Assembly (NCBI GenBank): GCA_033182465.1
Contig: CP137321.1
Coordinates: 868,001-932,000, forward strand
Origin: Sanghuangporus weigelae
Taxonomy: Eukaryota > Basidiomycota > Agaricomycetes > Hymenochaetales > Hymenochaetaceae
Reading direction: 5' to 3'
Length of the DNA: 64,000 nt
Positions 44,918 to 58,496 of the stretch are shown here, piece by piece. A program made the translations under genes and the position numbers. Position 1 is the stretch's first letter; each line of letters opens with the position of its first letter. Under the pieces are notes generated by a model. It ran no database searches and was not told where the DNA came from. It saw only the letters and a list, made by a program, of their open reading frames with translations.

Positions 44918-46260
44918 ATGCCGATGCCTTCAAGTATGAAGCTGTTTGGCGGTCAATCTCGTGTCAGAAGATTGTCTACATCTTCAAGCTTAGCGCCTAA
45001 GAGGTCATGCATGCCTCCAATGTTTAATGCAATTCGACTAGGGGTGTTTAGTGAGTAATAGCGAGCGTTTACTCGGGCAACCTGCATCCATATTGATCAT
45101 CTTTTCTTTCTGTTAGTCGGGATCCTTGTGTGCACGACTATCTGCTTAGCGATAGCGATACATTTTCAACGAATTTTGGTTTCCTCCGATCTTAGTGCGT
45201 ATTTTGTTCGTGACGACCGGCAATGGGGATAGGAGTACTGACTTTATTTAATTTCATTAACAGCTCATTTCGTGCCCTTCGCAAGTTTTGTGGCGGCCGC
45301 CACTCTCGTGGTCATCCTTTCTTTGTATGTTTTATATTATTTTGGGGTCTGAAAAAAATTTGCTCAACTGAGATTGCAGGCTTGTGTCTACTCTGTTCAA
45401 GCAAAGAAGTCCAATCACGACGCGCATAGAGCTTGCTTGCCTCGGACTACTTGCTGTCCTCTGGCTGGCCCTCGGGAGTTTCCTTGCGGCTTCTGAGTCA
45501 GCTGAAGCAGACGTGGAATGCTTTTCTTCCGATTCGACTCTTGAAGATCCCGTTGAATTCCCCGGATGTAAGTAATCTTGCGCGAAGTCACAAGTTCTGT
45601 GAATTAAGAACCTCCTTTTAGTTACGACGGATATCTTCCATGCCCAATATCGGGTTTTAGAAGCCTTCTCTATATTTAATCTTATTTTAGGTGAGCACAT
45701 CCGCTTCAGTTCAAGATCACCAATATATGTTCTGATGACGGATGTTTGACACAGCCTGGGGTTTCTTGCTATTTTTATTGTTTCTGGCACTCCGGGAGCA
45801 CCGAAACGGTCACAGGAAGGTCTGGCTGTATCCAGTACCTGTCTATCCGTGGTTCGGCAAGGGTTCCAAGTCGGGCCCATACATGCATAATTCACGCAGT
45901 AAGACCCTGCCGGCGCCGGTGACGGCTATGCCCAGTCGCCGCAAGGGCAGCACGCGCAGACCGAACGCAGCAGGTGCGGCGGAGAAGACGGAGAAGCCCA
46001 AGATGGCTGAATACCGTAAATCAGCGTTCTGGGTGTGGGTAGAGCGGCCCAGGATGGTGCCTACCGCACACACGCGTGCAGATACGCGCGATCGCAATAG
46101 GGATCGTGCTGCTCGCGACCGTGATCGCGAGCGAGAACGGCAACGCGAACGCGAACGACAACGTGAACGGGATCGTGAGCGTGAGCGGAGGAAAGCCGAG
46201 CCCTCGAGTTCCAGGAGAACACATACGACACCGCGACCGCCTCCACCACCGCGAAAATGA
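44918..46260 (+). CDS. MARVEL-like four-helix membrane protein 1, Arg-rich tail
   Basis: Six exons (44918-45050, 45117-45194, 45264-45324, 45380-45567, 45622-45690, 45755-46260) give 344 residues. Four hydrophobic helices are visible: GILVCTTICLAIAI, FVPFASFVAAATLVVILSLL, IELACLGLLAVLWLALGSFLAA and AWGFLLFLLFLAL. A Cys-bearing loop (EADVECFSSDS) lies between helices 3 and 4. The pattern TRIELACLGLLAVLWL is typical of fungal MARVEL-type proteins, which sit at membrane contact or fusion sites. The tail is basic and extremely repetitive (RDRNRDRAARDRDRERERQRE-type), ending in PPPPPRK. The first of three consecutive genes of similar topology. No enzymatic motif is present; a tetraspan scaffold role is inferred from topology only. 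Confidence 0.65.
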
Positions 46261-46791: not shown

Positions 46792-47873
46792 ATGCCTAGT
46801 CTACGGATCTCGCGGTACTTCGAGCTCGGTGCGCCGGTGTTTTGACATTCGCATTCGTCTCCCAATTTGATACTTACCCATCCTCTACGTCCGACGTGCA
46901 GGTATTGTCTTCATCGTCTCGGCTGTAGTCCTCGGCCTTGCTGCGAACTTTGCCAGCCTTTTCCTGCCGAACATCCATCGTGCGTATCTTTCACCTAGAT
47001 AACTGCCCAGACGCACTACTCACAGATCGCAATAGGCGACTACACAATATATGCTGTCATTGTACCCTCCTTGACAATTCTCGTTTGCATCTTCATGTAC
47101 GGATATCTCATCTGCGCGTGGTACCCGTATCTTGCTGATTACTGCCTATTCTGAAGCTTCCAACGTTCCGCCCTTCTGTACGATTTAATAATCCTGTTCG
47201 TGTTGGATGTCCTCTGGTTGGGTGAGCTACCATGTTATACAGAAAGATATTTCATCGTGCTCAAATTTCCCCAATTGTAGCGTTGGCGGCCTGGTCAGCG
47301 TAAGCAAGGCTCTGTCATTGCATGGACGTCTTGACCCACAATTGATCCATTTCCAGCGATGTCATCGGACACATCGAATGCTTCTCTCTTACCGGAAGGC
47401 AGGAGACCAAGAACGGGTCCAGTGGGTCCATTAAACTACTTCGTTTACATCTGGCCTGACCGCAGGTACAGTGTCTGCGAGACAATACTGTTATGAGATG
47501 AAATCTATCATGGCTTTCTCATGGTTCAACTTCGGCATTCGTGCGTCCCGCCAGTCTTTACTTATTGATCCTTGATCATTCAAACTTAATTTTTTCAGTC
47601 CTCATTGCACTGCTCTTGACCTTCAAATTGGGCAGCACACTTTCAGCGATGAATCCCCGAGCATGGTATGAGGATACAGCAATCTTGCCCGGCTTCGGTG
47701 CTTCGGGTGGACATGGCTATGGAGGCTTCGGCTACGGTGGACAACCCATGATGTACGGGAACGGACAGATGCCCTATGTCATTCAACAGGCTCCAGGGCA
47801 TTCTGTCGTCATCCAGCCTAACCCTGGAGGAATGCCAACGGTTCAGCAGGTACCGGGCGTATTAAATGCGTAA
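46792..47873 (+). CDS. MARVEL-like four-helix membrane protein 2
   Basis: Eight exons (46792-46828, 46902-46979, 47036-47096, 47157-47221, 47281-47299, 47357-47421, 47466-47540, 47599-47873) close in phase, 224 residues. The 19-nt fifth exon is required. Helices are IVFIVSAVVLGLAANFASLF, YAVIVPSLTILVCIFM, LLYDLIILFVLDVLWLALAAW and MAFSWFNFGILLIALLLTF. A loop with IECFSLTG carries a Cys, as in protein 1, and RQYCYEMK precedes helix 4. FELG...VVLGLAAN in helix 1 and DVLWLALAAW in helix 3 match the MARVEL-like pattern in fungi. The C-terminus is Gly/Tyr/Pro-rich (GGHGYGGFGYGG), probably disordered. The second of the trio; local duplication of the first gene is likely but the two have diverged strongly. 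Confidence 0.68.
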
Positions 47874-49371: not shown

Positions 49372-49763
49372 GGCTTCCGGGTTCGAATGACCGGGTGTCC
49401 AGACCGACAATATTAATGGTGGTGTAAGGGATTAGAACGGACGATAACACATAGGACGGTGCAATAATTGATTTCTGTATTCTTTCGTGCTTCTTGTTGT
49501 AAACTTGTCTCATGTACGGTACGAGCATTCTTGTTTGAATACAAGTCGAGTAACGGAAAGATTGTAATCAAGATGTAATGAAAATGAAGTAATGATGTAT
49601 TTCTTACGCGATCGGCAGATTCCGAGCGATCACCGCACCAGGACGGGTACTTAAGCTGACCACAGCTCGAACCGCGCCTCCTCCTTTCTAATCTGTAATC
49701 ACCCCCCTCGTCGTCCTTCGCCCTGTTTCTTGCTTCCTCAAACCTCATTGAGCGTTCAGCACC
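49372..49763. other. Promoter region of UBC8
   Basis: Downstream of membrane protein 3 and upstream of the UBC8 start. Pyrimidine-rich from 49670 to 49740 just before the ATG. No gene or repeat seen. Confidence 0.4.
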
Positions 49764-50714
49764 ATGATAAGTATTTCTGTTATATATATTTCATTAGTGG
49801 TCCTTTGACTGATGCGTAATCGTCGCCTATACAGCAATCCCAGCAAGCGTCGCATCGAGACGGATGTTATGAAGCTGTATGCCCTATCTTTGATGCATAT
49901 TAACATCCTTTGTGGCGAGCTGGACTCTGATATGTCTATAATATTGCCACAGACTTATGTCCGATTACGAAGTGACCCTCGTGAACGATAACATCCAGGA
50001 ATTCTATGTGCGCTTTCACGGCCCAGAAGAGAGTGCGTCAAGTTCAACGTATCTGTCATCATTTGCTCGTTTATCTGACCAAATACTTGCGCTTTCAGCC
50101 CCCTTCGCTGGAGGAGTGTGGAAGATCCATGTCGAGCTCCCCGATCAATATCCGTACAAGTCCCCGTCCATCGGTTTCATGAACAAGATATTCCATCCGA
50201 ACATCGATGAGCTGTATGTCCACGCGCCGCCTTCTTCATATACATCTGTTCAAGCAGCTGACCTCCTGCGATAGCAGTGGTTCAGTATGCCTAGACGTGA
50301 TCAATCAGACATGGTCGCCAATGTTCGGTATGACCTTCCGTAATTATTATACTGCGTCCGGGATTAATGAACTATTGCATTGGTTAGATATGATCAATAT
50401 CTTTGAGGTCTTCCTCCCACAACTCCTGCGATACCCTAATCCCAACGACCCTCTAAATGGCGATGCTGCTGCCCTCCTGATGCGCCACCCGAAAGACTAC
50501 GACGCGAAGGTCAAAGGTGAGAATGACTCATGCCCACTTTTGAGATAGTCCAACTCACAGGAATGCGCTAACGATTTTAGACTATGTACAACGCTATGCT
50601 ACGAAAGAGGCGGCCGATGCCGCTGATGGGAAGCCTTCCGCGAATGATGAAGAGCAAGAAGAAGACGCTGAGATGAGTGACATTGGGAGCTTCAGTGATC
50701 CCGATGAGGATTGA
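49764..50714 (+). CDS. UBC8: Ubc8/UBE2H-type ubiquitin-conjugating enzyme (E2)
   Basis: Carries activated ubiquitin to substrates; yeast Ubc8 acts with the GID/CTLH E3 in glucose-induced degradation of gluconeogenic enzymes. Seven exons (49764-49766, 49833-49876, 49953-50032, 50099-50213, 50275-50327, 50388-50516, 50581-50714) give 185 residues. The core starts [20 protein letters not shown], with [38 protein letters not shown], then [15 protein letters not shown] with the catalytic Cys, and [17 protein letters not shown]. The tail is acidic ([12 protein letters not shown]), as in UBE2H. The first exon is just ATG, and the only in-phase link to exon 2 is an intron with ATAAGT at its 5' end and ...TATAC at its 3' end. 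Without it, the next ATG would drop the conserved N-terminal helix. Confidence 0.92.
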
Positions 50715-51059: not shown

Positions 51060-51916
51060 TCATGACGTCTCCGGTATAGTCTTGACCATGTCGTCCACCT
51101 TCTTCTGAATGTCTGACGCAGTCTAGAGGAAGATAATCAGTGTGATGAGTTACACCACGGACAAGAGCTCCAACAAACCTTCATCAAGTGGTCTACCTGC
51201 CCCCTCACATTATCCAATGTCGCCGTTTTGGCTTTACTCTGTTTTAGTAGCTCTTCTTTTTGTTGCGTCAGTTCCTTCTTCTTCTGGTCCAATCTACGCA
51301 TGCCAATGCATCGAAATATGAGCCTGTATTTTCATTGTAGGGAAATGTGATTATGCATACCGTTGTCTCTCGGCAAGCTCGAAACTGAGCCTGTTTAACA
51401 TGAGCTGGTGCTCGTTCTGTATGACCTCTTCTGTTCGTGCATCTTCCGAGGCGAGTTCAAGGAATTCTTCAATGGAGTGAAGCGTTATATCTTGGTATAT
51501 AGATCTTCAGTTCACAAGAGAAATAACAACGCATCAGACACTTCCTGCTTGACCAACAGAAAACATGAAAGAAGTCCCACTCACGCAAACTGCCTACACT
51601 TCTCAATCTCCCGCTCTAGATGTCTCTTTTCGTACAGGAAGTTCTGCAGCCCAAGATGCGTATGGTCCATCTCCGTCCTCGAATCGGCAGTAGCCTGCTT
51701 GTGCGCGCGCACGGCAGCATTGGCGGCGCGGTTGAGGGCCTTGAGGCGAGCGAAGAGGGCGGCCGCGCGGACTTGGATAGTGCTTGGGTCGGAGTTGAGC
51801 GTGGATGAGCCGACGAGGGCTTGAATTTGATCTATGACTGCATCGGAGGGAGGTGGAAGTGGGAGAGACGTGTCGGTGTCTGTGGAAAGAGATTCGAGTT
51901 TGACGGCTACGGTCAT
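51060..51916 (-). CDS. THOC5: THO complex subunit 5 (THOC5/Fmip-like)
   Basis: Four exons (51916-51585, 51504-51361, 51293-51179, 51122-51060) give 217 residues. Residues ~85-115 read HLGLQNFLYEKRHLEREIEKCRQF, the most conserved block of THOC5, which forms coiled coil with THOC7 in the THO/TREX mRNA-export complex. It continues YQDITLHSIEEFLELA, then coiled coil MLNRLSFELAERQRLDQKKKEL. The protein lacks the larger C-terminal half of animal THOC5, which is usual for fungi. THO couples transcription elongation to mRNP packaging in the nucleus. The 5' region is Thr/Ser/Pro-rich. The short size and single block leave some room for another coiled-coil protein, but FLYEK..L..EI..C is distinctive. 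Confidence 0.8.
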
Positions 51917-57104: not shown

Positions 57105-58496
57105 ATGTCCATCCTTTCTGAATTCTCAAAGGCTTTGACGGCTTTGACCCCGGCTCCTCCGTTCACCTCTTGGGAATATGACGGTCTTCAATATAGGTGG
57201 AAAAACTTCGTTTTCAGGCCAGCTCGTGCGTTTTCTCCTTCATGCATGTTCAATCCGTTTTGAAAATTCTACCTCATGTTACAGTCTTCAAGCGAGAGGC
57301 TGTTCTCTTCGCTACTGTATTGATTTATATCATCTGGCACTTTGTCGGAAAGTCTATCAGCAAAAGTCGTGTTGAAGCATGGTAAGCGCCAGTTTTCTCA
57401 TGTCTTTTGACAGACAGCTCAAACCCCGATTAGGCTCAACGCACATTACGCGCTGCTGGAGCAGCAATTCTCTAAGCCATCGGCTGCAGGAGGCCTCATT
57501 CCCGATGGCCATGCGGAGTTCTTCAACTTCTCAACGGGCCGTCGCAACATTGAATCACTTCATTCTGTGTTCACGCTTCTACCGCGTCATGATGGACTGA
57601 AGATGTTGTATCAATTTTGCTGGGGCTTGGCCGACATGACGGCCACTGCAGAGGACGAAATCGAATTGGATTTCAAGCTTCATCCAAGTTCTACCCTTCC
57701 GAGTTTCGTCTGGGGTGCCGTGTCGAAGGAATGCTTGAGGACTATCAAGCGGAACAGATGGGATTTGGTGCGCTTGTTTCGCGTACATTGTGCTGTCACT
57801 ATTTACGAACCGATTCCCTAGACTCTGACTCGGACCACGGAAAGTCCACTCCTAAGTGGAGGTTATTGCGTCATGTCAGGTTAGCCGCTGTCATTTTCCC
57901 TCTTTGATTATTTGCTCACGGTCGGCCGGTGCAGAATATGCGGACGTGACTGAGGCATTGCTCAAGTCTGGCTCATTGAACTTCGGTGCAGCCCTGAATG
58001 ATCCTTCCGTTAGACCCTACGTCAAGTCACTGACAGTAAGCCGATCCTCTTCCTTCACCCTGTGTTTGATACTAGACTCTTGTCGCAGATTACCGACCAG
58101 CCGAGAGAACGTCCAAGCCAACCTATACCCGCAGATCAGCGCGAGCGGCACGTCATCCTCACCCTGCGCGCTCCTCCCGCCTCGCAGTCAGGCGCAACTC
58201 TCCCGCTAGTCAAGTCCATCTTCTCCTTCATCGACGCTCTCGAAGCAGGCAAGTTCTCCCTCCGCCCCGAGACACGCACGAAATTGCGCAAGACCCGCGA
58301 AGAGCTCGACGAGCAGATTCGCAAAGACGCCGAGGCGGAGAGGAAGGAAGAGGAGGAGCAGGATAAGGCTGCCGCGAGGAAGAAAGCTGAGGAAGAGAGG
58401 ATCTCGAAGTTGAGTGCTGCGGAGCAGCAGAAGGAGTTAGAGCGCGGGCGAAAACGACAACTCCGCAAGGCACAGGGAAAGGTCATCAAAAAATAG
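57105..58496 (+). CDS. CCDC47-family ER membrane protein (DUF1682)
   Basis: Six exons (57105-57225, 57285-57381, 57434-57767, 57822-57879, 57935-58035, 58089-58496), 372 residues, all in phase. A short lumenal or cytosolic head (SWEYDGLQYRWKNFVFRPA) leads to one membrane helix, EAVLFATVLIYIIWHFVG. The cytosolic domain follows with ALLEQQF, FFNFSTGRRNIESLHSVFTLLPRHDGLKMLYQF, VWGAVSK and ITDQP. The last ~80 residues are charged coiled coil (AEAERKEEEEQDKAAARKKAEEE) ending KAQGKVIKK. This is the CCDC47 layout. In animals CCDC47 pairs with Asterix in the PAT complex, which shields polar helices of nascent membrane proteins at the ER translocon; fungal relatives are little studied. Family assignment is firm, role inferred. 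Confidence 0.85.

Follow-up and report, generated by a model that had tools for sequence, protein, structure and literature searches.

A candidate AT-AC intron directly after the start codon of a Ubc8/UBE2H-class gene in Sanghuangporus weigelae

According to the part of PMC7072748 consulted here, introns with AT-AC ends occur at a much lower frequency in fungi than in either animals or plants. They account for 0.03% of the introns predicted by SnowyOwl in A. niger, P. chrysosporium and T. lanuginosus (excerpt of PMC4084796), and for 69 of 14,305 junctions (0.5%) in Trichoderma (excerpt of PMC4324775). In a mutated yeast intron, AT-AC was the most efficient junction after GT-AG, and one AT-AC protointron is spliced in yeast, where no standard intron is normally AT-AC (sections used of PMC6726248). 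The U2-type AT-AC introns of sodium-channel genes are described, in the passages available from PMC2831892, as derived by a rare U12-to-U2 conversion, with the switching of the ends taken to require simultaneous mutations. As regards position within the gene, the accessible text of PMC13309789 gives 42 introns of Yarrowia lipolytica with donors placed right behind the first, second or third base of the start codon.

In the window, by which we mean the whole stretch of 64,000 nucleotides analysed, a gene for a Ubc8/UBE2H-class ubiquitin-conjugating enzyme of this intron-rich fungus was located at positions 49764-50714 of the forward strand; with six introns, it would encode 185 amino acids. Judging from the sequence, an AT-AC intron directly after a lone ATG (intron 1) is probably the correct structure of its 5' end, being the best supported of those considered, and we put the probability of this reading at roughly 0.7.

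The gene, its product and its neighbours

The genome around the window comprises 33.9 Mb in 13 contigs, and a DNA search for a second copy of the locus matched one place, the locus itself. The first-pass annotation had placed the start codon at 49764-49766, followed by an intron with ATAAGT from 49767 and TATAC to 49832, and the letters read exactly so: CACC-ATG precedes ATAAGTATTT from 49767, the intron ends in CTATAC at 49832, and AGCAATCCC begins at 49833. Exon 2 (AGC AAT CCC), which had been taken for the conserved E2 N-terminus in phase with this ATG, indeed aligns with Ubc8/UBE2H. Introns 2-6, placed by protein homology, are all five GT-AG (Table 1). We take the cysteine of exon 5 to be the E2 active site. 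Intron 5 (50328-50387) lacks an in-frame stop, and its retention would insert 20 in-frame residues.

Table 1. Features of the Ubc8/UBE2H-class gene, in window coordinates.
Feature	Position	Strand	Basis or remark
Exon 1 (coding), start codon ATG alone	49764..49766	+	context GCACC-ATG-A
Intron 1, 66 nt, AT-AC ends (ATAAGT ... TATAC), candidate	49767..49832	+	sequence and frame
Donor of intron 1, ATAAGTAT	49767..49774	+	+1 mismatched; +2 to +8 predicted to pair with the 5' end of U1
Branch motif CTGAT (predicted), with 49812 as its branch A	49809..49813	+	motif score
Rival in-frame ATG, unspliced start	49812..49814	+	open reading frame
Exon 2	49833..49876	+	protein homology
Intron 2, GT-AG	49877..49952	+	placed by protein homology
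Exon 3	49953..50032	+	
Intron 3, GT-AG	50033..50098	+	homology; also recovered by gene finder
Exon 4	50099..50213	+	
Intron 4, GT-AG	50214..50274	+	homology; gene finder picked another acceptor
Exon 5, with putative active-site Cys	50275..50327	+	
Intron 5, GT-AG, 60 nt	50328..50387	+	homology; gene finder read through
Exon 6	50388..50516	+	
Intron 6, GT-AG	50517..50580	+	homology; also recovered by gene finder
Exon 7, ends with stop codon TGA	50581..50714	+	

The product of the AT-AC-spliced gene contains a UQ_con domain (1.1e-39), and among solved structures it is closest to UBE2H (2z5d, 1.6e-69; 8pjn, 7.6e-69) and yeast Ubc8 (8pmq, 6.5e-68, an entry that carries the name E2-24 kDa); NCBIfam assigned no family to it. 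Residue 4 of the query aligns with residue 3 of 8pmq, and residue 3 with residue 5 of 8pjn, so the predicted start lies at most 1-2 residues from the yeast and human starts, if those chains begin at Met. The yeast and human proteins have Ser at position 2. By its domain, closest similarity and N-terminus, the product belongs to the Ubc8/UBE2H E2 enzymes, with which it shares the whole E2 domain and the N-terminus KRR(I/M)(E/D)TDV, and from which it shows no protein-level difference of note.

Several neighbouring genes were also predicted. A THOC5 homologue (FmiP_Thoc5, 3e-37) lies at 51060-51916 on the reverse strand and a homologue of CCDC47, a PAT complex subunit, at 57105-58496 on the forward strand (2.9e-85). 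Two adjacent forward-strand genes at 45011-46260 and 46792-47873, both with hydrophobic stretches at the start and the string ECFS, are possibly a tandem pair.

Splice signals and competing links

The yardstick for the splice signals was a gene finder trained on 264 kb, made up of the window plus 200 kb next to it. It was seeded with GT-AG-like motifs and allowed GT-AG ends only, with intron lengths of 42-120 nt. The output comprised 108 genes and 527 GT-AG introns with a median of 56 nt, all of them predictions and no census; their consensus is GT(A/G)(A/C)GT at the donor, (C/T)TNA(T/C) at the branch and YAG at the acceptor. Within the Ubc8/UBE2H gene, the finder reproduced exactly two of the five GT-AG introns placed by homology (introns 3 and 6) and put the start of the gene at 49957, so that on the preferred reading the 5' end was lost. 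Gene finders restricted to GT-AG would drop the starts of such genes. A first coding exon of 3 nt, in combination with GT-AG ends, occurs in 2 of the 100 intron-bearing genes predicted in the 264 kb. An earlier splice filter was dropped, as it returned 54 GT-AG cases against 41-59 for ten control end pairs and so showed no excess.

Outside +1 and -1, intron 1 has signals of the kind usual in this genome. Its donor has the joint top score at +3 to +6 (AAGT, common to 44 of the 527 predicted introns) and, taken whole without +1, exceeds 97.5% of them. With the letters that we assumed for the U1 5' end, the donor pairs at 8 of 11 positions (-1 and +2 to +8), and at least 8 pairs are found in 88/527 predicted introns. 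The branch CTGAT shares the top score with 70/527, at a distance of 21 from the intron end by the script's count (median 18; 5% and 95% quantiles 11 and 33; n=527). The acceptor without -1 lies above 66.8% of the set, and the length of 66 nt corresponds to its 88th percentile. Intron 1 has the sequence properties of a U2-type AT-AC intron, namely AT and AC ends in frame, a U1-matching donor (TAAGT at +2 to +6) and a U2-type branch.

From these letters, the reading frame and the protein homology, we infer that the 66 nt after the ATG would be removed by the major (U2) spliceosome. U1 would pair with the donor at +2 to +8, and CTGATG would be paired by U2. When the exons are joined, +1A and -1C would act together where two G normally do; such a pairing of +1A with -1C was reportedly described by Parker and Siliciano in 1993 (cited in PMC6726248). 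The joining of ATG to AGC would then yield the conserved Ubc8/UBE2H N-terminus.

In the genome, U6 snRNA was found in two places with equal scores, both with ACAGAGA. The two U6 genes (L030 and L031, contig C3) are about 206 kb apart and have the same 40 letters around this motif. The same genome search found neither U6atac nor U12, but these are weak negatives, since it also missed U1 and had no positive control. The Rfam U1 model gave no U1 match, and U1 may be divergent here or have been missed. Cutaneotrichosporon oleaginosum is a basidiomycete. It is the one fungus for which minor snRNA genes are given in the consulted part of PMC7072748, a point in favour of a U12-type reading.

We asked how often sites of this quality occur by chance. 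Among 13,511 YAC sites on both strands of the 264 kb, a single one has an ATG/AT donor and an equally good branch 45-90 nt upstream, and that one is intron 1; ATG/AT donors with the top +3 to +6 score number only 3 in the 264 kb. When 24 end pairs were compared at the same criteria, AT-AG gave 2 matches, AT-AT 1 and AT-AC 1 (intron 1), and the other 21, including GT-AG, none. All AT-AG and AT-AT control matches lie on the donor of intron 1 itself. The rarity thus resides mostly in the donor, and what the AC end contributes is the frame. Dinucleotide shuffles of 49701-49832 produced no equally good in-phase AT-AC link in 20,000 attempts, and 4/20,000 when any of eight end pairs was allowed.

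Competing links from the ATGs upstream were also scored. Over distances of up to 400 nt, there are 24 in-phase links with GT-AG, GC-AG or AT-AC ends, of which intron 1 is the best at 14.3, followed by another AT-AC link at 8.2, with the best GT-AG link at 0.58; this score omits the end dinucleotides. Once the class frequencies of 0.03% for AT-AC and 99% for GT-AG are taken into account as a prior, about 11.7 bits are lost, and the lead of 13.8 bits over the best GT-AG link shrinks to about 2 bits. This remaining lead is widened by the Ser at position 2 and by the start context. The proposal of the first-pass annotation, namely a first coding exon of 3 nt followed by a U2-type AT-AC intron, is thus borne out as the best of the 24 links as scored, with splicing as the predicted outcome.

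Other ways of reading these ends were rejected. The visible GT-AG pair at 49771-49834 shifts the frame and meets a stop at codon 15, as the first-pass annotation had pointed out, and a donor so low outside its GT is found in only 2/527 predicted introns. Among the remaining in-phase links up to 400 nt away, those with GT-AG or GC-AG ends score poorly; the best of them is taken up below as a rival. Sliding the ends by one A gives a TA-CA reading (ATGA/TAAGT...TATACA/GC) with the same mRNA and an end pair that appears less plausible.

Alternative structures of the 5' end

The alternative that survives best, although we regard it as unlikely, is a start without splicing, in which translation would begin at the in-frame ATG at 49812 and the ATG at 49764 would open a 14-codon uORF. 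The frame of exon 2 is open upstream to 49809 and contains this ATG, nothing non-canonical is required, and the strict need for an intron is gone; the AT-AC junction had been called the only in-phase link, which was too strong. However, the start context of ATG 49812 scores -0.90 against 0.79 for ATG 49764 (the matrix, built from 58 predicted starts, is weak), and the uORF would stop (TGA, 49806-49808) just 3 nt before it. Seven extra residues would have no match in the aligned yeast and human chains, and 49809-49832 has a codon score of -0.79 bits compared with 2.65 for 49833-49874, a short and weak comparison. The ATG is moreover accounted for by the branch motif CTGATG, its A being the predicted branch A, and may be a by-product of it, and an unspliced start leaves the match of the donor without explanation. 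None of these arguments is decisive.

It is improbable that the 5' end has some other structure, with a GT-AG intron further upstream or a start at an ATG in exon 2 or 3. Within the search range of 400 nt, the best upstream link runs from ATG 49592 with a donor at 49597 to the acceptor at 49834 and is in phase with canonical ends (238 nt; MINPSKRR...), which also tells against the AT-AC junction as the sole in-phase solution. Its donor, GTATTT, lacks G at +5 and is matched or undercut by 10/527 predicted donors, its length greatly exceeds the median of 56 nt (from a finder limited to introns of at most 120 nt), and it places Ile instead of the Ser that the yeast and human proteins have at position 2. 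The GT-AG-only gene finder did begin the gene elsewhere, at 49957, but translation beginning in exon 2 or 3 would lose SKRRIETDV or more.

An assembly or base-calling error, behind which the true intron would be an ordinary GT-AG one with, for example, two donor bases lost, seems improbable as well. The same protein would result from a phase-2 GT-AG intron ending at the CAG acceptor that now stands at 49834, and this acceptor is an ordinary one, with 323/527 introns scoring no higher outside AG. Yet substitutions would have to strike both ends of the intron, and an indel would have to remove exactly two bases at the donor to leave ATGATAAGT. A U12-type intron is barely credible: it is the minor spliceosome that recognises the majority of AT-AC introns (part consulted of PMC7072748), but the donor is ATAAGT and not ATATCC, no CCTTAAC-like branch was seen (consensus as given in the excerpt of PMC3033335), and the available text of PMC10639083 gives no convincing minor introns for Basidiomycota and Ascomycota.

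Possible origin and relation to described introns

For the preferred AT-AC intron, the first-pass annotation had suggested a canonical ancestor, ATG/GTAAGT...TAG/AGC, two substitutions away. This is possible, but it is rivalled by a single 2-nt deletion that leads to the same sequence and mRNA. In this tentative scheme, which we hold to be possible rather than probable, the loss of GG at the donor of an AG/GT...ACAG/ intron would create AT-AC ends shifted by two bases and leave the mRNA unchanged. The ancestor would have been the phase-2 GT-AG intron ATGAG/GTAAGT...TATACAG/C, the loss of two G would have produced ATGATAAGT, and the AG of codon 2 (AGC) would be the old acceptor, now part of the exon. 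Among the predicted introns, 20/527 combine an exon end AG with an ACAG acceptor, and removing GG gave AT-AC ends and an identical mRNA in 20/20, as the letters themselves dictate. By the same letter arithmetic, a 2-base assembly error could mimic the site.

The first coding exon of yeast UBC8 has 5 nt, which would favour the deletion ancestor. On the position of the intron in yeast UBC8, the literature searched, including the portions consulted of PMC8394074 and PMC3507789, held nothing usable, and a limited search of partly accessible literature met no deletion route in print. A search for orthologues confirmed 0 of 41 pattern matches in genome_contigs (prokaryotes) and 0 of 3 in viral_contigs, collections that have no bearing on fungi. 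If the deletion route is true, many U2-type AT-AC introns would have a 3' end of the form AC/AG, and GT-AG orthologues would be displaced by two bases. Should orthologues agree, the route would provide an origin for U2-type AT-AC introns that requires neither a U12 ancestor nor a double mutation, and would so avoid both the ancestry and the simultaneous mutations considered for the sodium-channel introns.

Intron 1 is a clean natural candidate for the compensation of +1A by -1C in the major spliceosome, and it lies in a conserved gene. The usual Ubc8/UBE2H N-terminus would depend on it, and signs of the minor spliceosome were not found, with the weak negatives noted above. At the density of the predicted set (527 introns per 264 kb), the genome would contain about 67,600 introns, of which, at 0.03%, about 20 would have AT-AC ends, so that intron 1 is unsurprising as a member of its class.

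SCN4A intron 21 and the other sodium-channel introns of the U2-type (AT-AC II) share with intron 1 the AT-AC ends, A at +4, G at +5, T at +6 and a U2-like branch (passages available from PMC2831892). Intron 1 differs from them in its length of 66 nt, its position right after the start codon, its fungal host and in that its splicing is predicted; the sodium-channel introns are thought, in the same passages, to come from U12 introns. The yeast SUT635 protointron and the use of AT-AC in RPL30 indicate that a major spliceosome without a minor one handles such ends (sections used of PMC6726248), but of the yeast cases one concerns an RNA that is non-coding and the other a junction that is used as an alternative, whereas intron 1 would supply a conserved gene with its main junction. 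The start-codon introns of Yarrowia lipolytica are alike in their first coding exon and, unlike intron 1, are not given as AT-AC in the accessible text of PMC13309789. U2-type AT-AC introns are already known in fungi, and intron 1 adds a candidate of a known rare kind.
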